20,118 nucleotides of DNA from a virus. A model generated the notes under the pieces. That model worked only from the letters and a program-made list of their open reading frames with translations. It was not told the DNA's origin and did no database searches. Where the stretch lies: positions 1 through 20,118 of the IMG/VR virus record IMGVR_UViG_3300028920_000316. One strand, written 5' to 3'. Shown here piece after piece: positions 3,375-20,118 of this stretch; positions within the stretch are counted from its first letter, which is position 1, and every line of letters starts with the position of its first letter. The position numbers and the translations under genes were made by a program.

Positions 3375-3857
3375 TTATCTGTCTGTCATTCTTTTTTCCA
3401 GGAGGGACAGAGAACTGTTCATGATAACCTTCTCATCCCTTTCAAACCCAAGACCCCTACGGAAGAGTCTTGCGACTGATTCGTTTCTTGCCCACAGTCT
3501 AACCCTGTCCGTCCCGTGAAGCTCTCCCCACTTCTTGATGGTGGAGAAGAACTCCGTGTAGAGATCACTCGGAATGGTACACCCCCTGTTTTTCCAGTGC
3601 TGGAAAATGTTGATATACTTGTTCCCGTAGTAGTTCTCCATTGTTACGACCGCATGTGCAATGATCTCACCATTGTCAACAATGACAAACGGAATCATGT
3701 ACGGTGAGTCTGAGAAATAACTATTCATGAATTCATCGAACAACATGTTGATGTCCGACTCAGATTCATACCTCTCACAAAACTCTTCCATTCTCCTCCA
3801 TGTTCGAAGAGCAAGTCCGGGCACGGCACTTGTGTAGTGAACGGCTAGTAGTTCCAT
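3375..3857 (-). CDS. GNAT-fold acetyltransferase-like protein (160 aa)
   Basis: I set the start at the ATG at 3857, with TAGGGAG four bases upstream built on the previous stop; an upstream in-frame ATG at 3917 would add an Arg-rich leader within the previous gene. The sequence reads like a GNAT fold: PYMIPFVIVDNGEIIAHAVV (52-71) for the central strands, then NKYINIFQHW, then a helix LYTEFFSTIKKWGELHG, then VRLWARNESVARLFRRGLGF (119-138), the GNAT ending in which Asn and Arg precede a Leu-Gly-Phe. The Arg/Gln-x-x-Gly-x-Gly/Ala acetyl-CoA loop is poorly matched (HWKNRGCTI), so catalysis is uncertain. It may be a virion structural component with a GNAT-like fold, since it lies between spike and ejection genes, rather than an enzyme acting on the host. 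Confidence 0.75.
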   Translation of the reverse strand: MELLAVHYTSAVPGLALRTWRRMEEFCERYESESDINMLFDEFMNSYFSDSPYMIPFVIVDNGEIIAHAVVTMENYYGNKYINIFQHWKNRGCTIPSDLYTEFFSTIKKWGELHGTDRVRLWARNESVARLFRRGLGFERDEKVIMNSSLSLLEKRMTDR

Positions 3858-3865
3858 GCTGCTCC

Positions 3866-6265
3866 CTAAATCGCCCAGTTGATAGGCTGATCGCCGCCGA
3901 GTTCGCCTCTCAACCATAGTTCAATGGTTGGCGATGTTAGTGATGTTGTAACCCGGAACGAACAGTTTAGCTGAGTTGTAATGGATGAGAATACCGCAAT
4001 TGCAAGCGTTCCTGTCGAAACAAGATTCTCCTCCTCTGTGTAGCTGACGATAGAAGATGCTGTACCGCCAGATGCGTTCTGTCCAAGAATTGTGAAATAT
4101 CCCATCGAAGCCTGCGTGTTGCCGGAAGCATCTGTTACGCGGACATGCCAGTGGAACTTGCCGCCAGCGGTTTTGTCTGACGGGCATGTGATGGTGAAGA
4201 CGCCCTTCCCAACTCCGCTTGCCAGCGTGTTGTCGTAGCGGCTGGACCTTGTGTCCATCTGTACATCACCAGTGCCGTCAATGTCGTTGGCACCAACGTC
4301 AATTGTTCCGTCTGAGTCGATGATCGTTGATAGGCTTGAACTTCCAATGTTCAGTTCGTTGGAGCCGTTTACGTCAGCGACGTTGCGCAGCGTGCCACCG
4401 CTGTCTTTGATTGAAAGACCGTAGGTATTGGGTAGCTGTACCTCCCCGCCAATGTCAACGGCATTACCGGCTGGGGTGAGAGTCATTGTGCCGCCGGATA
4501 TGATATTAGTTCCAACAGATCCAGATCCAACCGTAACAATGTCGGAAGAGTTCAGCCCAATCAGATAGGCGTACCCGGCAACCTTCCCATAACCAAGAAG
4601 GTACTTGGCGTTGGGCATGATAAGGTCAGAGCCAACCTCAACCTGATCTGCCGCGTTCCCCTTTACAAGGCTGATGGTTCCTGTGCCAGCAAAGTCCGCG
4701 CTGTAGACAGCGGCAGTGTTATTGTCAAATCCAATTCCCTTGTTCTGCCACCCATCAATTGTTGATATCACATCGTCAAGATCTATTGCACCAGACAGAA
4801 GCTGGGTTGGCGCAACTGACAGCCTGATAGAAGAATCCGGGTGCTGGTTTTCAAGGTCCCGATTTGTCAGGTTTGGGTGGCTGTCTGGCGAGGCACCAAC
4901 GGACACCGTGTCGTTTGAGATCCAGCTAACATAATCGTCGCCGTCCTCTGTTGTTGTTATGGCTGCATGCCATGTGTTTGAATATCCCGAGTTGGTCTTG
5001 TAGATTATGCTTGCGAGTGGAACGATCTCTTCAACCGGAAGATCTCCATAAAGAATTTGTGAAAGTTCCTCCAGGGCACCATCTCTTGCGTTTGATCTTG
5101 TTGTGTATTCATTCTCTCCCATGATGGAAATGATTGGCTGATCAATATCGTTGGTCGCAAAGATGTGAGCAAGCACAAAGTCGTTGTTGCTTCCAACCTC
5201 TGTCAGTTGCCATGCCCCGCCTGTGTACTCATTGAAGTACAGCCTGTCAGTAGCCAGAACAACGGGAGCGTTTGTAGTCGTGGCTCTTTTCCACAGTGGA
5301 GTTGCGCCAGTCTTGTACAGCACAGGGATTTGTGCTGGCGACGACTGTGTATCTATGTTATGAACAAGATCTTCATCTCTGACCGCGCCAGATGACACCG
5401 ACATTGTGGCCTTGTCGTCGGAGTTCCCGTTTGGGCTTGCCGATGCCGTAATGTCGCCAAGCGTTAGTCCGCTGACAATCTGTGTCCCGTGGTGAATGTG
5501 AATCCAGGCATGCGTTGCCCAGTCCATGACAACGCCATGACGCTCGTCACCAATATAGATTGCCTCATGGTCGGAAATGGTGTCTCTCTGGTACACTGCG
5601 GCAACATAGGCATACGTGCTCAGGAGATCAGTTGTCCATGTTAGCGTCTCTCCGAGGGTGCCGTCTTGCTTAACGTAGATGTGGTGCATCCCCTCGTCTG
5701 CGGAAAGTGTGATGGACAAGTCACCAGTGATTGTAACCCTTTTCCCGGCGACATAAACGTCAGCCGAGGTTGCTGGCGCAACAAGTGACAGCGTGAAATC
5801 TCTGTTCGGGCCAGAGTATGCGTACTCGGTGTCCTCTCTTGCGTCTGTTGTGAACCCGTTTGGTTCACCTGTTACCTGCCCAATGTTGTCAATGCTTTCA
5901 AGCGCAGTCTGTATGTCATCGTCCGTAGACTGTAGCCAGCTTGCAAAGTTTGTGGTTGTAACAATCACATCAGCGGCGGCTCCGCTGTCACCAACCCTCA
6001 CCCATGACCCGTTGTCGTAGTAGAGAATTCCTGTTACCACATCGTAGTAGAAGTTGCCAAGCCCGCTTGCTGTTTGGGCTGATTCTCCAGACGGGACAGA
6101 TGTTGTGAAGTAATCAATTCTAGTCGCAAGCTCAACCAGCGCATTGGTGACAGCCTCGGTCAGCCTGGAAGACCAAGCGACGGTATCCTCTGGTGTAGCC
6201 GGTGGCGGTGGGAACCAGGGAACTACAAGGAACTTAGTCCCATAGAATCTGTCGTCTGTAGACAT
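3866..6265 (-). CDS. Tail fibre/spike protein (799 aa)
   Basis: This is a long, Ser/Thr/Gly/Asp-rich protein after the nozzle and before the ejection genes, so a receptor-binding fibre or spike. Residues 1-50 (MSTDDRFYGTKFLVVPWFPP, then a helix) look like the tail-attachment part. FYYDVVTGILYYDNGSWVRV (72-91) is a motif common in phage fibres. Residues 250-270 (THAWIHIHHGTQIVSGLTLG), 390-425 (ARDGALEELSQILYGDLP, EEIVPLASIIY) and 463-480 (HPNLTNRDLENQHPDSSI) are phrases I associate with fibre proteins of aquatic phages. The C-terminal region shows two similar beta repeats (about 550-596 and 611-657), suggesting a triple-stranded shaft, and the last 120 residues may be the receptor head. No glycosidase motif was identified. 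The next start lies eight bases beyond its TAG. Confidence 0.8.
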   Translation of the reverse strand: MSTDDRFYGTKFLVVPWFPPPPATPEDTVAWSSRLTEAVTNALVELATRIDYFTTSVPSGESAQTASGLGNFYYDVVTGILYYDNGSWVRVGDSGAAADVIVTTTNFASWLQSTDDDIQTALESIDNIGQVTGEPNGFTTDAREDTEYAYSGPNRDFTLSLVAPATSADVYVAGKRVTITGDLSITLSADEGMHHIYVKQDGTLGETLTWTTDLLSTYAYVAAVYQRDTISDHEAIYIGDERHGVVMDWATHAWIHIHHGTQIVSGLTLGDITASASPNGNSDDKATMSVSSGAVRDEDLVHNIDTQSSPAQIPVLYKTGATPLWKRATTTNAPVVLATDRLYFNEYTGGAWQLTEVGSNNDFVLAHIFATNDIDQPIISIMGENEYTTRSNARDGALEELSQILYGDLPVEEIVPLASIIYKTNSGYSNTWHAAITTTEDGDDYVSWISNDTVSVGASPDSHPNLTNRDLENQHPDSSIRLSVAPTQLLSGAIDLDDVISTIDGWQNKGIGFDNNTAAVYSADFAGTGTISLVKGNAADQVEVGSDLIMPNAKYLLGYGKVAGYAYLIGLNSSDIVTVGSGSVGTNIISGGTMTLTPAGNAVDIGGEVQLPNTYGLSIKDSGGTLRNVADVNGSNELNIGSSSLSTIIDSDGTIDVGANDIDGTGDVQMDTRSSRYDNTLASGVGKGVFTITCPSDKTAGGKFHWHVRVTDASGNTQASMGYFTILGQNASGGTASSIVSYTEEENLVSTGTLAIAVFSSITTQLNCSFRVTTSLTSPTIELWLRGELGGDQPINWAI
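4295..4618 (-). repeat. Two imperfect beta repeats in the spike C-terminal shaft
   Basis: Residues about 550-596 (begins MPNAKYLLGYGKVAG) and 611-657 (begins LPNTYGLSIKDSGG) align with shared positions: PN-aromatic, GT/GY, a NGS or NSSD turn, I-V-x-G-S and TIIS/TIID near the end. This repeat layout is common in phage fibre shafts. The alignment was by eye. Confidence 0.5.
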
Positions 6266-8916
6266 TACAATCCACGCTCCGTAACTGATGCTTCAGATCC
6301 GGCCCATTCAACTCCCTGTCTATAATTGCCTGACATTCTCAGTGAGAACAGCCTTCCTGTGGTTCTGTGGCCCGTTAGAAGAGGCTTGCCGTTTCTGTAT
6401 ACCTGTAGCGTCTGTACGCCGCTGGACTCTCTCTCATGGCCCGATAGCGACACCAGAAGCTCTACGCCGATCTCTTCGCCGGTTGCAGCCAGGAAGAGGT
6501 GATCAATCTCATGAACTGTTTTGTATGACGTGATGCTGCCCATGTCATACATTCCCGTTTCAAAGCTGTGGTAGATCGGCCCATCAAGATCCTTGTGACC
6601 TGAGAAGAATGTCACCCTGCCGAGCGGGTCAAGGAATACAAGCTCTTTTCTTGTGCTCCCGTATGAGTCAATAACTCCACGCAGGTCATCAATAGGCACA
6701 TCGCCAAGCTGGTCGATTGTCTTCGACAGGTCAATGATAATGTCTCCACCGGCACAGAGGCCAGCGGGGAACACCTGAGGCCACAGCGTCGCCTGCTGTG
6801 TTGTCATGTCAAGAATAACAGCTTCCTTTGGTGACGTGTCGTTATACGGCACATACACAATGAAGAGCCTCTTGTTCTCATCATCGTAGACGAGATATGA
6901 CTGGTCGATCTTTTCAAAATCAATTCTCTTCTTTAGATATGCCTGAACGTGTGATCCAACGCTCCTTGGTCTGACGCCATCAAACAGAACAACGTCGGCA
7001 GACTTTGTTAGATATGCGTGCAGGCCGTCGTTGATCGCAACAACAGACCCTGCGGAGCATGGACCCTCAACGTTGGCAGCGCGAAGCTCAAACCTGAACG
7101 GCGGTTCAAGAACCTGCCCAATGGCAACGTAGATCGAATCCGTTTTGTAGATCGCTGCCTGCATGTTACCCATTTCCAGGCCGGTAACAATGAATCCCGG
7201 AGTGTCTACAAGTCTAAACTTTGTTGTTGCCCTGTCCCACTCATCAATAGAAAATGTATCCGTGTACAGCCCTGTGTTGCCGTCGTCGTCCTCGCCATCA
7301 AGGACACCAAGATAGATAACTCTCCTGAAAATTGTTACAAGAGATTTACATATCATGTTTGTCGGGCCAACACCGCCGCCGTGCATTGTCAGCGTATTAA
7401 CGGTTCCAGTTCCGTTCCAGTAGATGCCCTCCGATTCGTCGTTAACTCCGATCATGTACCTGTCTTGGCTTGCGCCACCGACTGTACCAGCAAATGTTTT
7501 GAATACGGGCTGAACATTGTCTGATGTGATTGTGGTCGGCCAGTCCCCGATTGAGTCCCATGAATAGTCCGACTGGATTGCATAAAGGCTGGACTTTGTT
7601 GAAGCAACACCCTGAGTTGAATCTTCGTCAACCTGGAATGTAAACACCGCGTTTGGTCTTTCGCCAAGAACGAACCCGCTCTGAATGTCTGCCTCACTGA
7701 TTGCAAACTCATCACCGGATGCCGCTGGATAGAAAGTTATCAGCAGGGCAAGATAGTTTGCTTCTGTCTGAATGTTGTTGAACGTTGCCTCTAGGTAATC
7801 ATCAGGATCATCCCATTCAAGATCTTCCTGAAATACTTCTTCTCCAATATAGAACAGCTCGCCGCTTGATTCATAGTCCGATCTCGTCCAATCATTGACT
7901 CCATCGTCATCGTAATAGTCAAACCCAAGAATTCTCAGTCCAACCTTTGAGTTTGCGTTGGTCCCGGCGACCTTAACTCTTCCGGTCATCTCTGCCGCGC
8001 CTGTGGCAACCATTGGGCTTACAATCTGCAATACGCCGTCAGCTTGCACCCCAGTTGTGTAAACTGTTACATCTGTCTCCGTTGCTGAGTAGTATACAAG
8101 CTCTTCACCTGCTGCGGCAGAGCCGTTTGTTTTGATCACAAACCCGGTTGCCCCAGGTACCCCGTCCACAACGGTCAGAAATCCGTCAGATCCATTGATT
8201 GGTATTTGGACACCTTCTGTTGGGAACCCAGGAACACCCCAGGTTTCAAGTTGTTTAGATGGGTCAGCCGTCGGGTTTAGGAATATTACTGCTCCGTCAT
8301 TCCCGTAATTAATTGTAATATAAGATGTGCCGTCCGACAAGTAATAGTCAATTGTGTCTCCGGGAGACCCGCCAATCCAATAGGAATTAAGCACTGGCGT
8401 GTCAGCGTCCCATTCTAGCTGTAGATAGCCTTGACCGGCAATAGATGTCTCTCCGTAGACGGTCATGGTTAGATCAGTCGTCGGAACATCATCAAACGTT
8501 ACCTTGAAATATCCATCTCCGCCATGGTTGAGGAAATCTGGATCTCCGGCCTGCCATGTCTCCCATGTTGCCGAGTTGGTTAGTGATGTTGCGTCGTCGG
8601 AATTAAGGCCCCACCCAACCCACTTTGCTGCATAGTAATCAGGCCCCTGCGGGAAGTCTGTGTTATATAGGCCAAAGTGCAGATTGGCAAACGAAAAATC
8701 GTCTGATTCATTGATGTAGCTCAGCGCATCGCTGTACCCGGCTGTATAGTCGTCAACGATGTAGTCAAGGCCATCTCTGACCCTGAATCTACCGTCGTCT
8801 CCGATCCAATTCTTTGACGAGACAAGTCCATCGGCACCGATTGCACGTGGACTTTTGTCCGCAATCACCCCAGCAAGTGGGAGCGGGATTGGCACCTTTG
8901 GTGCGCTGCTAGCCAT
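6265..8916 (-). CDS. Large tail nozzle-like protein (883 aa)
   Basis: This is the best candidate for the podoviral nozzle (tail tubular B/gp10-type) below the adaptor. The N-terminus has the typical opening: PLPLAGVIADKSP, GLVSSKNWIGDDGRF, then RVRDGLDYI, matching the usual 'asn-x-gly-x-x-arg-x-gly' pattern. The C-terminus ends with GRLFSLRMSGNYRQGVEWAG, also typical. The middle has repeated propeller-like strands, for example SSLYAIQSDYSWDSIG, QDRYMIGVNDESEGIYWNG and AYLTKSADVVLFDGVRPR. Residues about 100-430 contain extra jelly-roll-like segments (GYFKVTFDDVPTTDLTMTVYG, then YYLSDGTSYITINYG), which would explain a length above the smaller nozzles such as P22 gp10; they may bind glycans. Both ends are TAATG overlaps with neighbours. 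No in-frame disruption is seen. Confidence 0.72.
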   Translation of the reverse strand: MASSAPKVPIPLPLAGVIADKSPRAIGADGLVSSKNWIGDDGRFRVRDGLDYIVDDYTAGYSDALSYINESDDFSFANLHFGLYNTDFPQGPDYYAAKWVGWGLNSDDATSLTNSATWETWQAGDPDFLNHGGDGYFKVTFDDVPTTDLTMTVYGETSIAGQGYLQLEWDADTPVLNSYWIGGSPGDTIDYYLSDGTSYITINYGNDGAVIFLNPTADPSKQLETWGVPGFPTEGVQIPINGSDGFLTVVDGVPGATGFVIKTNGSAAAGEELVYYSATETDVTVYTTGVQADGVLQIVSPMVATGAAEMTGRVKVAGTNANSKVGLRILGFDYYDDDGVNDWTRSDYESSGELFYIGEEVFQEDLEWDDPDDYLEATFNNIQTEANYLALLITFYPAASGDEFAISEADIQSGFVLGERPNAVFTFQVDEDSTQGVASTKSSLYAIQSDYSWDSIGDWPTTITSDNVQPVFKTFAGTVGGASQDRYMIGVNDESEGIYWNGTGTVNTLTMHGGGVGPTNMICKSLVTIFRRVIYLGVLDGEDDDGNTGLYTDTFSIDEWDRATTKFRLVDTPGFIVTGLEMGNMQAAIYKTDSIYVAIGQVLEPPFRFELRAANVEGPCSAGSVVAINDGLHAYLTKSADVVLFDGVRPRSVGSHVQAYLKKRIDFEKIDQSYLVYDDENKRLFIVYVPYNDTSPKEAVILDMTTQQATLWPQVFPAGLCAGGDIIIDLSKTIDQLGDVPIDDLRGVIDSYGSTRKELVFLDPLGRVTFFSGHKDLDGPIYHSFETGMYDMGSITSYKTVHEIDHLFLAATGEEIGVELLVSLSGHERESSGVQTLQVYRNGKPLLTGHRTTGRLFSLRMSGNYRQGVEWAGSEASVTERGL

Positions 8917-14752: not shown

Positions 14753-16699
14753 CTACATCATTGGGTTGCCCATTTCATCAACAGGCACCATGTTCCCATC
14801 CTGCACGCCCTGCTCAACCTGCTGGTCATCCATGACCTGTGGTGGCGGTGGCAGTTCGGTGTAGAACCTGTCAATGTTTCTGGCACCCATGGTTCTGAAT
14901 CCTTCCTTGAGGATCGCGTTAACATCTGGAACCATACCGTCGTTTGGCTGGATGCCCATCTGCTGCATAAGAGGAACGAACCTCATTACTGATTCAGCGA
15001 TCTGCATCCATGTGCTAGCCTGTCTAACTGGATCTGGCGGAAGAATGCCATCGTTTGGAACGTAGTCGTAGTTACCCTGAATCAACTCCCTGTTCCCGAA
15101 GACGTGCTGGTTGTTAGAGATCGCCGCGTCTTCTCCGGCGATTCTGTACATCTGGTCAAGCGAAGTGTACTGGAGCCTGTTGGCAATAAGTCTCTTCGCC
15201 AGCGGATTGATTGCCATCGCGTCGATCATTCTGGCAAGGATCGTAATCCTCTGTGAGGCAGATGCGTTGATAACCTGGATCTCTCCAAGCGTTCTCTTGT
15301 CGGGAGTCGGCATGCCCATCTGTGGGTCGTTCGCCGCAGACATGCGCTGGGCAAGCTGGAACAAGTTCGCAACAGCACTAAGGTGCGGAGCGGTTACGTC
15401 GCCAACCTGCATCTGGTGAACGAACTGGTCAACTGAGTATCCACCAGACATGATCAGCTCTTCACCAAGCTGTGTGAGCCTCATGTGTCTGGCCGGTCCT
15501 GGGTTCTGCACGTCGTACTCTTCGATGAGAGCTGGCGCGTAGATCATGGCATCATTAAGGTGGCGCATTAGGTTCTGGAGGTGTGAGTTGTACATCCAGT
15601 CCATGTAGCGCTGTAGGCCATCAAGGCTCTCAATCATTCCTGGGTTGAACGCAGAGTGGAAGTCCGGGTCTGACTCGGCAACAGAGTAGGTGAACTGCTG
15701 GTGATCATACGGGCACGGGTGTGCTCTGATGATCACGGCATCGTCGGCCCACGTGAACCACCAGATTTCCGGTGACTCTTTCTCTGACAGTTTCCATTCC
15801 TTCGGGATGATCTTGACCTGCATGTGGTCAAGCTGGTGTGTACCCTGGTCGGTTTCGTCGATATCGTTCTCGGAGAACCCGCCAACACCAAGGTCGGTCC
15901 CGTCGTCTGTGTCTCTGCTCTTAGATGACGAAATCTTTTGTAGCTTGTCAACATTGAAGTACGGACCACCGTTGTTCTGCGCACGCTCAATGAGGTACAT
16001 GCGTCCACGGTGGAACCGGTGCCCAACGAACTCACCCTCCTGCGGGCTGGCAATCGGAATTCTTGGGTCTGGGTAATACTCAAAAGGATTCACCGGAGTC
16101 CACAGGTTGTGTTCCTTGACAACGCCATAAACGGTGTCATGGAATGTCAGCGGAGGCCCACCCATGATCGGTGATGGAACCTCAGTTGTGATAACCTTGT
16201 TCCCGTATTCACTCGTCCATGAGTCATACATGATGCCGCAGCCGAACTTAAGTGAGTCCTGGCACATGGCATACACTGATCTGAACGCGCCCATCTCTTC
16301 AAGGTCATACGCTACCATTGACTCAAGAATTCTTGATGGCTCAACGTCCTCTGGACCTCTGCCCCTGAGCTGAATCATTGGCTCTCTTGAACCAAAGATC
16401 GACATCAACTGGGTAAGAAGAACTCGGAGAATTGAATAGGACGCGGGCACAACGATGGCCCGGTCGAACGGCATCTCTTTCGTATCGTTGTCCGTTGACC
16501 CGTCCGCCCTCTTCGCTTTGCGCGTGAGGTCAATGTACATCCTCATCTTGTTATTGGTAGAACGCCACTGGTCCTTTCGGCTTGAGATGTGAGACTCAGC
16601 CGAATCTCTTCTTGCAAGCAGTTTGGCAAGCACCTCTTGGTGAAGAGAACCGGAAGGCTCAAGTCTGGTTTCAATAGGTTCGTCAAGAACTTCTACCAT
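14753..16699 (-). CDS. Portal protein (648 aa)
   Basis: The portal forms the dodecameric DNA channel at one capsid vertex and docks the terminase. The call rests on position directly after the terminase nuclease and before the scaffold and capsid genes, on length in the usual range for podoviral portals, and on sequence character: a helical N-terminus (LLARRDSAESHISSRKDQW), the region ELPFDRAIVVPASYSILR-like segment near residue 80, an aromatic wing region (LWTPVNPFEYYPDPRIP), the helix with GLQRYMDWMYNSHLQNLM near residue 370, and a long helical C-terminus with RITILARMIDAMAINPLAKR. The C-terminal tail is rich in Gln, Met and Pro. The ATG is preceded by TAGGGAGGAT, whose TAG is the terminase stop. 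The next gene begins eight bases after the portal stop. Confidence 0.88.
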   Translation of the reverse strand: MVEVLDEPIETRLEPSGSLHQEVLAKLLARRDSAESHISSRKDQWRSTNNKMRMYIDLTRKAKRADGSTDNDTKEMPFDRAIVVPASYSILRVLLTQLMSIFGSREPMIQLRGRGPEDVEPSRILESMVAYDLEEMGAFRSVYAMCQDSLKFGCGIMYDSWTSEYGNKVITTEVPSPIMGGPPLTFHDTVYGVVKEHNLWTPVNPFEYYPDPRIPIASPQEGEFVGHRFHRGRMYLIERAQNNGGPYFNVDKLQKISSSKSRDTDDGTDLGVGGFSENDIDETDQGTHQLDHMQVKIIPKEWKLSEKESPEIWWFTWADDAVIIRAHPCPYDHQQFTYSVAESDPDFHSAFNPGMIESLDGLQRYMDWMYNSHLQNLMRHLNDAMIYAPALIEEYDVQNPGPARHMRLTQLGEELIMSGGYSVDQFVHQMQVGDVTAPHLSAVANLFQLAQRMSAANDPQMGMPTPDKRTLGEIQVINASASQRITILARMIDAMAINPLAKRLIANRLQYTSLDQMYRIAGEDAAISNNQHVFGNRELIQGNYDYVPNDGILPPDPVRQASTWMQIAESVMRFVPLMQQMGIQPNDGMVPDVNAILKEGFRTMGARNIDRFYTELPPPPQVMDDQQVEQGVQDGNMVPVDEMGNPMM

Positions 16700-16710
16700 C
16701 CAGATCCTCC

Positions 16711-17592
16711 CTACATTTCCCCAAGTAGCTTGCCGTATGAGATCGGTGCTCTTGGTTTGTTCTTTGATTTAAGTTTTGCCGCTTCCCTGGAGATGGGCCA
16801 TTCTCTGTGGATGAGGTATCCAAGAGCGTCCGATGCGTGAGTTCGGCGGGCGTATGGGTTGCCCTCTCTGTAGACCTTCAGCACGTCATTGCCGTCCGGT
16901 CTCAGAACAACCTGATGAAAGTCAGCAATCAGCTCAACACATTGATCACTGACATAGACGCACTGTATGTTGTCGTACCCCTTCAGCCTGTTGTTCAGTG
17001 AGTTGATTCTAGCCCTGCTGGGCGGCGAGGATCTCGGCACCTTGATAACAAACCTGGAGGGATAACCCTGCATATGGATCTGCATCAGCTCATAGTCAGA
17101 CTTCTCAGTCTGTGATGTTCTCCGAAGACCGTTGGAGTCTCCGTAGACATGAACCTCTGCCGGGTGATCCGGGTATCTGTTGCGGAACTCTGTGATCATG
17201 TCCGGGATATTGCCCGGAGATAGGCAGATCTCATCAATGACAAACAGTTTTCCGCTTCTCGTCTGGCAGACTTCAAAGACACACGGGTCAACGTTGAAGT
17301 CGCAGGCCAGCAAGAGCGGAGCGTTCTTTCTGTAGATCAGCCCGCTTCTTACATGAATCTTTTCGTTGAATGATGGGTATGCAGCGATTCCGAGCTGGGC
17401 AGTGAAATCCATTTCCATTTCACGGTCCCAGTCCTCATCCCTGTCGTATGTCTGTCTGAGAGATGCCATGTCTCCAGGCGTCTTGGCGTTGTCGTGTGAG
17501 TAGTGTATCGGCACAACAACGAACCCGGACTTGGAGTCTAGCACCTCCAGCACATCCATGCGCTGATTCAGTTCATCAGCGTGAGATTCCAT
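16711..17592 (-). CDS. Terminase large subunit, nuclease domain only (293 aa)
   Basis: This matches the C-terminal half of a phage terminase large subunit: the RNase H/RuvC-fold nuclease that cuts concatemeric DNA at the portal during packaging. Residues 25-75 resemble the linker that normally joins ATPase and nuclease domains (HYSHDNAKTPGDMASLRQTY then FTAQLGIAAYPSF). Candidate metal-binding acids are D98 in LLLACDFNVDP, D120/E121 in FVIDEI, D152 in VYGDSNG and D255 in HASDALGYL, in the expected order. Complete large subunits are usually around 450-650 residues, and the Walker A/B ATPase domain is missing here. Upstream in the same frame a TGA stop occurs at 17617-17619, and none of the four genes further upstream carries a Walker motif. 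The start overlaps the preceding stop (TAATG). I infer a genuinely split terminase with the ATPase encoded beyond the right edge. Confidence 0.88.
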   Translation of the reverse strand: MESHADELNQRMDVLEVLDSKSGFVVVPIHYSHDNAKTPGDMASLRQTYDRDEDWDREMEMDFTAQLGIAAYPSFNEKIHVRSGLIYRKNAPLLLACDFNVDPCVFEVCQTRSGKLFVIDEICLSPGNIPDMITEFRNRYPDHPAEVHVYGDSNGLRRTSQTEKSDYELMQIHMQGYPSRFVIKVPRSSPPSRARINSLNNRLKGYDNIQCVYVSDQCVELIADFHQVVLRPDGNDVLKVYREGNPYARRTHASDALGYLIHREWPISREAAKLKSKNKPRAPISYGKLLGEM

Positions 17593-17981
17593 TATCTGTA
17601 GTCTCTTCCACCAATTTCAACTTCGCATTCAGCGCTCTGCTGAACCGGGTCTGTGCCGTCCGTGGCCTGGAGTCTCGCATAGTCCCAGCCGCCGAAGTAA
17701 GACGGTGGCACGTTAACGCTGAACCCTGTTTCCGCCAAGCCGGTTGGGACTGTGATCTTCAGCCTGTCTGTATTGCCCTTGCAGTCGTCAAGATATACGC
17801 CAACACAATTGTCTTCGTCGCTGTCGTATGATCTCTCAAACCAGATCTCAGTCGTTGAGGCGTCAAGTGCGCCGAACGTTAGGCTTGCAATGTGAAACCC
17901 GTTCATGTGAATAAGGTCCGAGTATCCGCTCGCACCAGTACCAATCGTCCACCCCGCATCTCTTGGGTCTACTGTTGACAT
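17592..17981 (-). CDS. Beta-rich virion-type hypothetical protein (129 aa)
   Basis: The ATG at 17981 lies inside the end of the preceding gene and is preceded by a strong AGGAGGACAA ribosome-binding site. The protein shows alternating beta-strand patterns throughout: IASLTFGALDASTTEIWFE, a central VGVYLDDCKGN, then a C-terminal PPSYFGGWDYARLQATDG and a short ending. This layout (effect of a displacement-like strand, Asp-rich middle, aromatic-Gly-aromatic turn, short charged tail) is one I associate with small beta-sandwich proteins common in aquatic phage structural clusters, where function is usually not assigned. I cannot name a family with confidence. Its stop overlaps the start of the terminase nuclease gene as TAATG, so the two are likely translated together. 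Confidence 0.7.
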   Translation of the reverse strand: MSTVDPRDAGWTIGTGASGYSDLIHMNGFHIASLTFGALDASTTEIWFERSYDSDEDNCVGVYLDDCKGNTDRLKITVPTGLAETGFSVNVPPSYFGGWDYARLQATDGTDPVQQSAECEVEIGGRDYR

Positions 17982-18502
17982 TTGTCCTCCTGTTGCTTCT
18001 CTGGTGCGGCAAGATCTTTCATTGCCTGTTGAGCAAGCTCTCTTCTCTTCCTATCCTCTTTGTCAATCGGTTCGTAGATGTGCTTCATTCCAAACTGCTC
18101 AAGCCTGAAAACGTTGTGCATCTCTTCACAAAAGTGGCCTAGGTATTCAGGCTTTGTCGGATTCACCACCAGTTTTCTGCCGACAACCCTTGTCCATTCG
18201 GCAGCCTTTGGGTATTCCTTGTCGATCATCAGTTGATCAATGCTGCATCTGGCCTTTGGGACATCGTAGATCTCTGACAGTTTAGCCATAGCGGATGCCC
18301 TGAGGTCCTTCAGGACATCCACAATCTTCGCCGCCTCTTTGTCTGTCGTCTCTTCCCTGTCATACACTACAGCCGCAAATCCGAATGCGGCGAGCAGTAC
18401 AAATGTTGCATCGTCCTCAAACTCTCTTCTCTTGTTCCGAGAAACTAGATAGGAAACGATTACAATAAGACAACCAACGAAGATGATTCCAAGCCAATTC
18501 AT
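17969..18502 (-). CDS. Membrane-anchored protein with His/Glu-rich segment (177 aa)
   Basis: I chose the ATG at 18502, which overlaps the preceding stop as TAATG; the longer frame starting at 18535 would add residues that overlap the upstream gene. The protein opens with a hydrophobic segment (about residues 4-20, LGIIFVGCLIVIVSYLV) followed by RNKRR. A second hydrophobic stretch runs from about 32 to 47, so it is probably a two-pass or signal-anchored inner-membrane protein. The rest is soluble and highly charged. Residues 122-141 (GHFCEEMHNVFRLEQFGMKH) hold a cluster of His and Glu that recalls zinc-peptidase helices, but there is no exact HExxH, so activity is doubtful. Candidate roles are holin- or spanin-like lysis function or a membrane-associated late protein. 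The gene overlaps the next one by 13 bases. Confidence 0.7.
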   Translation of the reverse strand: MNWLGIIFVGCLIVIVSYLVSRNKRREFEDDATFVLLAAFGFAAVVYDREETTDKEAAKIVDVLKDLRASAMAKLSEIYDVPKARCSIDQLMIDKEYPKAAEWTRVVGRKLVVNPTKPEYLGHFCEEMHNVFRLEQFGMKHIYEPIDKEDRKRRELAQQAMKDLAAPEKQQEDKCQQ

Positions 18503-19044
18503 TATCTGGTGAACCTCTTCAGGGCAAGTAGCCACTGCTCAGGTGTGCCCTCAGGGTTCTGCGTTCTCCAGTTCGTCATCAGTGTTGCGACTTGGTCGGC
18601 CTGATCGTCTCCGACTTCTGACCTTGTCACAGCTTCAATCTTTGTTGAAAGCTCGGCCCACAGGTCTTCACTGATGGGGTCTTTAATACCGCGACCCTCG
18701 GCCCAGGCCGGGATTCCTTCTCCGTCGTCGTCCACCGCCAGCACCATGAAGCGTGCATCACTGTTGATGTCTAACACAACGGTAGAGTCGCAGTGATTTG
18801 TCTCGCCGCGCAGGGGCGGGTACTTCGGAGGGGCAACAAGTAGGTCACCGTCAACTGGACCCTGTAGACCCTCTGTTGTGACAGTGCGGGCCTGTCTAAC
18901 TCCTGTGAACAGATCGCGGCTAAGGTCACCAGACTTCCTCACAATAGTCGCCTGACCGGCGTCTGCCCAGTCGCCGTAGACGTGTGGGAATTCCTCTCCT
19001 GGGAGGATGTCGTACTTGCAGAGTAGGGTTACTTGAACCTTCAT
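18502..19044 (-). CDS. Hypothetical protein (180 aa)
   Basis: No family is recognised. The N-terminal half is beta-prone (MKVQVTLLCKYDILPGEEF at the start, then VVLDINSDARFMVLAVDDDGEG around residues 88-109). The C-terminal third is helical and ends with PEQWLLALKRFTR. It has no membrane segment. The ATG is preceded by TAGGAG, which again includes the stop of the upstream gene. Its own stop overlaps the start of the next gene in the sequence TAATG, implying translational coupling to the membrane protein that follows. It belongs to the group of four unassigned or fibre-like genes lying ahead of the terminase nuclease gene. Confidence 0.75.
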   Translation of the reverse strand: MKVQVTLLCKYDILPGEEFPHVYGDWADAGQATIVRKSGDLSRDLFTGVRQARTVTTEGLQGPVDGDLLVAPPKYPPLRGETNHCDSTVVLDINSDARFMVLAVDDDGEGIPAWAEGRGIKDPISEDLWAELSTKIEAVTRSEVGDDQADQVATLMTNWRTQNPEGTPEQWLLALKRFTR

Positions 19045-19052
19045 GTGCGCTC

Positions 19053-19304
19053 CTAAATCTTAAACAGGTTGACGTAGATGGGCCATGTTTCAATGGCGTC
19101 CATTGTCATGTTTGAATCTTCATACTTACCGCCGGTCCCGGTAAGCAGGGTTGCCGATGAACTGGACCCGACTGATGTGCCGTCGTCAAACAGTTCCGCG
19201 TCGGCACCATCAAGAACAATCTGGAGATCGCTCTCGGCGTCTGGTGTGCTGCCGCCGTCAATAAGCTCTGTCTCGGCTGGGAGAATTTCAAGTGTAAATC
19301 CCAT
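19053..19304 (-). CDS. Small acidic hypothetical protein (83 aa)
   Basis: I do not recognise this protein. It is 83 residues, very acidic, with a Ser-run (VGSSSSATLL) and a final segment ending in WPIYVNLFKI. No membrane segment, signal peptide or catalytic motif is visible. The start is supported by a TAGGAGAT ribosome-binding site, whose first three bases are the stop of the preceding gene. The next gene follows after eight bases with the same arrangement, so the gene sits firmly inside the operon and is likely translated. Its composition (Gly, Ser, Thr, Asp, beta-prone) would fit a small virion-associated protein, but this is a guess. Confidence 0.7.
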   Translation of the reverse strand: MGFTLEILPAETELIDGGSTPDAESDLQIVLDGADAELFDDGTSVGSSSSATLLTGTGGKYEDSNMTMDAIETWPIYVNLFKI

Positions 19305-19312
19305 AGTATCTC

Positions 19313-20118
19313 CTATAGCTGAGGCTTGTCATAGCCTGGGAAAGCATCAGTGAGAGACCCTAGCCAGTATCCACAGAGATGTATGTCTCTTAGATAGACG
19401 TTTGCGTGGTAGTAGGCCGACGCAGATAGCGTATCAATCTGAGACCAGCTTGTAATGCTAGATCCCCAGTTGACGCCTCTGGCTGTCCAGCCAGCTCTCA
19501 CAAAGCCGGTTTCACTCTCATACAGTGCTGTTGTGAGCGTCTTGTTTGTCTGATTCCACTCAGCTCTTAGTTGGTAGTATCTCTGGTTGTTCGCGTTGTT
19601 TCCAGTGTTTGGGTCGTCCTTTGAGATGTAGGTTCCGTTGTAGTATCCGTATGAGAGTAGGTCCTCCTGCCCGTTGACGGTGTTTGGCTCACAATAGAAC
19701 CCGGTTCTGCTGTCCCCACCGGTCCTTGTGCCGTCCCAAACGCCAACATTGAGCGAAGTCTGATTGTTGGCCTCCCCAACGTACCACCAGCAACACCTGA
19801 ACCCGGTTGTGAAGTCATATGGAACCGGCAGCGGAAACTCTGCCCAAACTGCCTCTGTGACGCTAGAATTGAGCTTTACGATGTTGATGTTCGGATTGTA
19901 CGAATATGAGTCGGTTGGGCTGGCTATAACTCTTGCGAGGTTCGCTGTGTAGTAGCCACCGTCGGTGTAGTAAGTAATACCGGCTGGTTCCTGCCCAATG
20001 GTATCAGAGTCAAATGTTTTGAGATATGGAACTGTGAGACTGTTTTCGCCAACCACTATTTGAAGTGCCGGGTCCGTTGTCTGCCCGCGAAGAAGGATCT
20101 TTGACTCACCAGACGGAG
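19313..20118 (-). CDS. Fibre/lectin-like virion protein, 5' end outside window
   Basis: The reading frame stays open to the right edge: 20 codons upstream of the GTG at 20056 contain no stop and read as a plausible protein (residues PSGESKILLRGQ then TTDPALQIV). The GTG is therefore probably internal and the gene is 5'-truncated by the window. About 268 residues are visible. The stretch YLKTFDSDTIGQEPAGI is the type of opening seen in concanavalin A-like jelly-roll domains, and the rest is rich in Tyr, Trp, Asn and Thr in alternating beta-strand patterns, with a CCWW cluster. I infer an adsorption or virion-surface protein with a lectin-like C-terminal domain. The stop TAG is part of the ribosome-binding site of the next gene. 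Its place upstream of the packaging genes, away from the tail module, is unusual. Family assignment is by pattern only. Confidence 0.6.
   Translation of the reverse strand, partial: PSGESKILLRGQTTDPALQIVVGENSLTVPYLKTFDSDTIGQEPAGITYYTDGGYYTANLARVIASPTDSYSYNPNINIVKLNSSVTEAVWAEFPLPVPYDFTTGFRCCWWYVGEANNQTSLNVGVWDGTRTGGDSRTGFYCEPNTVNGQEDLLSYGYYNGTYISKDDPNTGNNANNQRYYQLRAEWNQTNKTLTTALYESETGFVRAGWTARGVNWGSSITSWSQIDTLSASAYYHANVYLRDIHLCGYWLGSLTDAFPGYDKPQL

Follow-up and report, generated by a model that had tools for sequence, protein, structure and literature searches.

The viral record IMGVR_UViG_3300028920_000316, analysed here as one window of 20,118 bp that comprises the entire IMG/VR record, encodes on its minus strand the nuclease of a large terminase subunit (TerL) without an ATPase domain. 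Comparison with related contigs indicates that this gene very probably specifies the nuclease subunit of a TerL made of two polypeptides, the partner of which would be a T4-like ATPase of about 230 residues encoded upstream. The usual description of TerL is of a chain with two domains, and its nuclease domain has been called universal in Caudovirales (PMC7824862). Our searches of the open-licence literature brought up no two-polypeptide TerL from a tailed phage.

A TerL nuclease gene lacking the ATPase domain

The gene opens with an ATG that shares bases with the TAA of the preceding gene, forming the TAATG coupling already described in an earlier note on this DNA. That note had placed the end of the gene at 17619, a figure that takes in the upstream TGA stop; its argument that the start is not misassigned is sound, because this in-frame stop leaves the frame open for only eight codons 5′ of the ATG. 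The features of the gene are as follows.

16711-17592, minus strand: TerL nuclease gene (linker and RNase H-like nuclease, no ATPase), ATG start, 293 residues; assigned by PHROG 10250 and by AlphaFold2 with Foldseek
17617-17619, minus strand: in-frame stop, eight codons 5′ of the nuclease start; the stop-to-stop frame, 16714-17616, has 301 codons
17413-17592, minus strand: N-terminal linker segment, residues 1-60, with weak likeness to the linker behind the ATPase in T4-like TerLs
17299-17301, minus strand: D98, invariant acid, unchanged in 20 split nucleases
17230-17232, minus strand: E121, invariant acid, unchanged in 20 split nucleases
17137-17139, minus strand: D152, invariant acid, unchanged in 20 split nucleases
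16828-16830, minus strand: D255 of an RTHASDA motif, kept in most relatives and Ser in L016 and L053

No family in Pfam or NCBIfam matched the protein. PHROG 10250, a 228-position nuclease profile annotated as 'terminase large subunit', matches residues 56-276 (E 2e-15), and an AlphaFold2 model built on a 20-row alignment (predicted local distance difference test, pLDDT, 83.9) resembles in Foldseek the solved TerL nucleases of D6E, SPP1, P22 and G20c. Profile, model and alignment agree on an RNase H/RuvC-like nuclease domain with conserved acids. Among the nuclease acids that the earlier note had listed, D98, E121 and D152 are invariant and D255 is kept in most sequences, whereas D120 is variable among the 20 relatives aligned. 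The combination of ATPase and nuclease in one chain that is expected of a TerL is absent from the window protein: the profiles and the model confirm that the gene encodes a nuclease without an ATPase domain, and ATPase profile searches across the whole window gave no match anywhere.

Separate ATPase genes in related contigs

Relatives in IMG/VR carry the partner as a gene of its own. In L014 (locus labels are ours), the nearest kin with a nuclease 53% and a portal 58% identical to those of the window, the order is ATPase, two genes that are fibre-like by appearance, nuclease, a 140-residue gene and portal. In L002, whose nuclease is 40% identical to that of the window, a 244-residue ATPase open reading frame (ORF) lies directly 5′ of the nuclease and shares a TAATG with it; ATPase and nuclease abut in the same way in L039, and the 44-kb contig L015 has the order ATPase, short ORF, nuclease. 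L014, L002, L015 and many other contigs thus hold the protein that was to be sought upstream, one with Walker motifs that ends at the ATPase-linker boundary, and the host-supplied ATPase offered as an alternative is unnecessary.

These ATPases, of about 230 residues, share a PKSRRMxxSW motif, a Walker B motif of hydrophobic residues followed by DE, and an S[ST]SNG-like coupling motif; the Walker B residues D173 and E174 are invariant in 22 ATPase sequences. The proteins end about 15 residues past the coupling motif, and the split nucleases start just before a conserved 'VxPIHYSxDPxK' strand; the point of division is conserved. The split-ATPase profile matches T4 gp17 in the PDB (E 1e-9), and the model of the L014 ATPase (pLDDT 90.8) superposes on the gp17 ATPase with a root-mean-square deviation of 2.5 Å (template modelling score 0.74, E 2e-13). 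The relatives' ATPase therefore has the additional strand catalytic glutamate (ASCE) fold of the T4 gp17 type, together with its Walker B and coupling motifs. Within the phage collection, a search with the L014 ATPase gave no match, and one with the L015 ATPase matched distant T4-like TerLs only. Two candidate sources were rejected: lambda gpA, whose own score is no better than noise although four members touch PF05876, and the SU10 TerL, which neither half matches significantly. All split ATPases have a lysine-first Walker A (PKSRRMxxSW), and similar forms occur in RM378 and lambda gpA.

Counting distinct sequences rather than species, the 44 ATPase sequences listed come down, once short and repeated ones are removed, to 41 distinct split sequences and one fused. 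A separate nuclease ORF lies downstream of the ATPase on the same strand at 36 listed loci (the repeats L054 and L067 set aside), and in five others (L036, L049, L050, L052 and L162) the contig stops soon after the ATPase. Wherever a core-clade contig holds both ATPase and nuclease, each has an ORF of its own. The gap between them ranges from an overlap (-4 in L074, -1 in L002 and L039) to about 4.5 kb in L046, and the spacer changes readily, since sister contigs differ (34 nt in L020 versus 633 nt in L033; -1 in L002 versus about 1,050 in L037). Unrelated genes occupy the spacer, and most spacer ORFs matched no family; those identified are an N6/N4 methylase (L016), an amidase (L022) and a weak laminin-G match (L046). 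The L018 spacer also holds a tRNA gene at 8194-8266. Spacer proteins at L018:8747-9652 and L021:4507-5580 carry a CxxC...EIHHY pattern reminiscent of zinc-binding nucleases, and the former had no convincing match in Pfam. At L022:5762-6611, the nuclease extends over two overlapping frames, through either a sequencing error or decay of the copy.

By sequence comparison, both halves are under purifying selection in close pairs, with ratios of non-synonymous to synonymous substitution (dN/dS) of 0.08-0.22 where dS is unsaturated. Together with the same arrangement in relatives, this agrees with the earlier description of the split as stable rather than broken. The two halves also diverge in step: across 16 contigs their evolutionary distances correlate (r 0.74, Mantel p 1e-4), which fits joint inheritance. 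No second complete large subunit was detected in 14 records, in which PF03237 found none and PHROG 2 matches only the split pieces, and an assembly error joining unrelated contigs, a further doubt raised at the outset, is unlikely, because independent assemblies show the same arrangement.

Several points nevertheless count against a functional two-polypeptide TerL in the window. We infer its ATPase from kin only, because the record ends at the right edge of the window, beyond which that gene would lie. In the partner found in those kin, the expected Walker A is non-canonical: GK[ST] is absent at the T4 position, and T4 Gly165 and Lys166 align to other residues. Two of the 20 relatives aligned (L016 and L053) carry Ser at the position of D255. 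The correlated divergence of the ATPase and nuclease halves is by itself no proof of interaction and may stem from shared ancestry alone. Finally, T4 gp17 cut at its hinge kept both activities and lost translocation (PMC3012670, PMC9958956), so the working of a split motor is not to be assumed.

In the window, the nuclease gene lies beside a portal gene, and five ORFs, rather than the four counted before, separate it from the right edge. The neighbouring features are given below.

17592-17981, minus strand: 129-residue gene, sharing the TAATG with the nuclease; 34% identity (E 6e-10) to the L014 frame 7204-7659
17969-18499, minus strand: 176-residue spacer gene, no family matched
18502-19044, minus strand: 180-residue spacer gene, no family matched
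19053-19304, minus strand: 83-residue spacer gene, no family matched
19313-20116, minus strand: fibre-like gene truncated at the right edge; open frame, no family match, labelled by appearance only
14753-16699, minus strand: SU10-like portal gene adjoining the nuclease; PF23899, E 3e-16; 58% identity to L014
11996-13237, minus strand: SU10-like major capsid protein; PF17236, E 2.5e-29

The 129-residue gene and the nuclease have swapped order, because the L014 homologue sits downstream of the nuclease and the window gene upstream. A gene that is fibre-like by appearance comes straight after the ATPase in L014 and L036. The right edge of the window and the end of the L036 contig are both breaks inside a fibre-like spacer gene; the L036 record gave no portal match and no nuclease match. 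Among the tail genes of the window, a 180-residue ORF at 3375-3917 is acetyltransferase-like by appearance.

Ancestry of the two halves

In sequence comparisons, the pair looks like a chimera, in which a T4-like ATPase and linker were combined with the nuclease of another TerL lineage and the chain was later divided upstream of the junction. The split-ATPase profile scores 33-47 bits against T4-like TerLs and at most 1 bit against TerLs carrying the related nuclease, whereas the split-nuclease profile gives 62-164 bits against the latter and at most 5 bits against the former. Profile-profile comparison divides them in the same way, with scores against the T4-like and the other group of 126 and 24 for the ATPase and of 16 and 394 for the nuclease domain. 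The split nucleases fall on one side of a 99% branch. Residues 1-67 of the nuclease protein resemble the T4-like linker, collinear just past the end of the ATPase match. The nuclease domain is held in common with PHROG 10250, the single-chain L003-L013, Pseudomonas phage hairong and Pelagibacter phage HTVC026P (99-164 bits to the split profile); unlike the split family, the TerLs of L003-L013, hairong and HTVC026P have a GRRxGKT-type ATPase in the same chain.

Less favourable to a chimera are the linker match, which scores 31.5 against 21.2 for the best of 100 column shuffles at a profile probability of 45%, and the ATPase tree, which joins long branches. Both halves could instead descend from one nuclease-side TerL whose ATPase diverged fast after the split. 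The long stem branch on which the split ATPases sit would suit such a history, as would the relationship of the two fused groups to each other in their ATPase (profile score 143), but we judge it improbable given the opposite profile preferences of ATPase and nuclease domain, and a fused relative, L187, divides in the same way.

Fused forms were to be looked for in relatives, and two came to light, L187 and L197, the only ones fused among them. L187 has ATPase and nuclease in one chain of 513 residues, 42-45% identical to the split ATPases and 37-39% to the split nucleases of L183, L185 and L186. Compared with 294 phage records, none covers 80% of L187, and each of the matches listed either ends by residue 279 or begins between residues 269 and 280. 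A first scan of genome contigs found no loci, and a second, with the distant clade, found ten in bacterial genome records. The distant-clade loci are split in L188, L190, L192, L193, L194 and L196; L197:5902-7440, on a 1.38-Mb contig of Megasphaera massiliensis NP3, encodes a fused TerL in which an internal Met lines up with the position where the split nucleases start. Host names for this clade are tentative except for L197, because the other records are contigs of metagenome-assembled genomes.

The ATPase tree places L197 as sister to the split L196 (support 100/99) and leaves L187 without a settled position; on the nuclease tree, L187 falls in with split members (94). A split that arose once and was never re-fused was rejected on the ATPase tree (approximately unbiased test, p 1.6e-4, for a grouping defined by the trait and with long branches present). 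Because L197 nests among split sequences, one early fission followed by re-fusion is favoured on sequence grounds, as it needs fewer steps than many fissions; repeated fission is a possible alternative history.

Proposed working of a two-piece terminase

We infer from these comparisons one motor built from two polypeptides. The separate ATPase would supply the ATP-driven force, and linker and RNase H-like cutting domain would come with the nuclease polypeptide. The two would dock non-covalently at the portal, with no covalent hinge, to initiate, translocate and cut. The division sits between the ATPase core and the linker, earlier than the T4 hinge cut, and the linker therefore travels with the nuclease; a split motor may be workable on account of this earlier position. 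More tentatively, a separately made ATPase ring and nuclease could be able to dissociate, with the nuclease joining only for cutting and with covalent coupling, regarded as essential in T4, being dispensable, and with fission and re-fusion both having occurred; we regard this fuller proposal as possible rather than probable.

A rather unlikely alternative places the nuclease outside the motor: the ATPase alone would translocate, and the nuclease would be recruited, in its own stoichiometry, solely to cut at the start and end. The separate gene at a variable distance from the ATPase and its changed order relative to the 129-residue gene would be in keeping with this, and so would the phi29 motor, which runs with a vestigial nuclease domain (PMC7672431). 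However, the linker remains with the nuclease, the divergence of the two halves is correlated, two fused relatives exist, and the DNA-moving part in the T4 model is the C-domain (PMC3012670).

The halves might also be joined before or during translation, by a self- or trans-splicing intron or a programmed frameshift, to give one TerL chain. There is precedent in mirusvirus and alloherpesvirus terminases, in which ATPase and nuclease are likewise encoded apart and are trans-spliced to one protein (reported in the former, proposed for the latter; PMC12768974), and phage TerL can contain inteins (PMC7156551, PMC3670811). Those two virus groups have eukaryotic hosts, whereas relatives of the present family sit in bacterial genome records. 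Both halves begin at separate start codons close to a conserved position, and a stop codon closes the ATPase; in L002 and L039 the spacer is missing altogether, and no slippery heptamer was seen by eye at the L002 junction. Rfam recognised no intron in eight scanned loci or the window, and no homing endonuclease was recognised in 20 proteins scanned, in line with the earlier remark that no endonuclease intervenes; nor did these scans give any sign of an intein separating the halves. Joining is thus highly improbable. Hardly credible is a broken gene, with the window nuclease a decaying remnant and another terminase or the host doing the packaging: the nuclease is the only half visible in the window and that of L022 lies in two overlapping frames, yet dozens of divergent contigs share the split, dN/dS is about 0.1 in close pairs, the catalytic acids are invariant and no other TerL was detected in the 14 records.

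Among known systems, T4 gp17 and the T4-like TerLs, including gp17 of Rhodothermus phage RM378, have the ATPase fold, Walker B, coupling motif and linker in common with the split family, and RM378 gp17 has a similar lysine-first Walker A, KPRQMGVTW. T4 gp17 is one chain, whereas in the split family the ATPase gene stands apart from that for linker and nuclease, the nuclease belongs to a different lineage, and other residues occupy the positions aligned to the T4 P-loop Gly and Lys. Kuravirus SU10 shares with the window the terminase-portal-scaffold-capsid order and the portal and capsid families (PF23899, PF17236), although its TerL is a single 513-residue chain matched by neither half's profile.

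Domain-based annotation can miss or mislabel such terminases, because the halves tested had no match in NCBIfam. The split, seen throughout a family of uncultured phages, matters because the hinge-cut T4 motor stopped pumping DNA, a result that underlies models of hinge-coupled force generation (PMC3012670, PMC9958956). A clade that apparently lives with a natural split, and that has fused relatives, would make it possible to test directly whether force generation requires the hinge, and also how the nuclease stays off during pumping.
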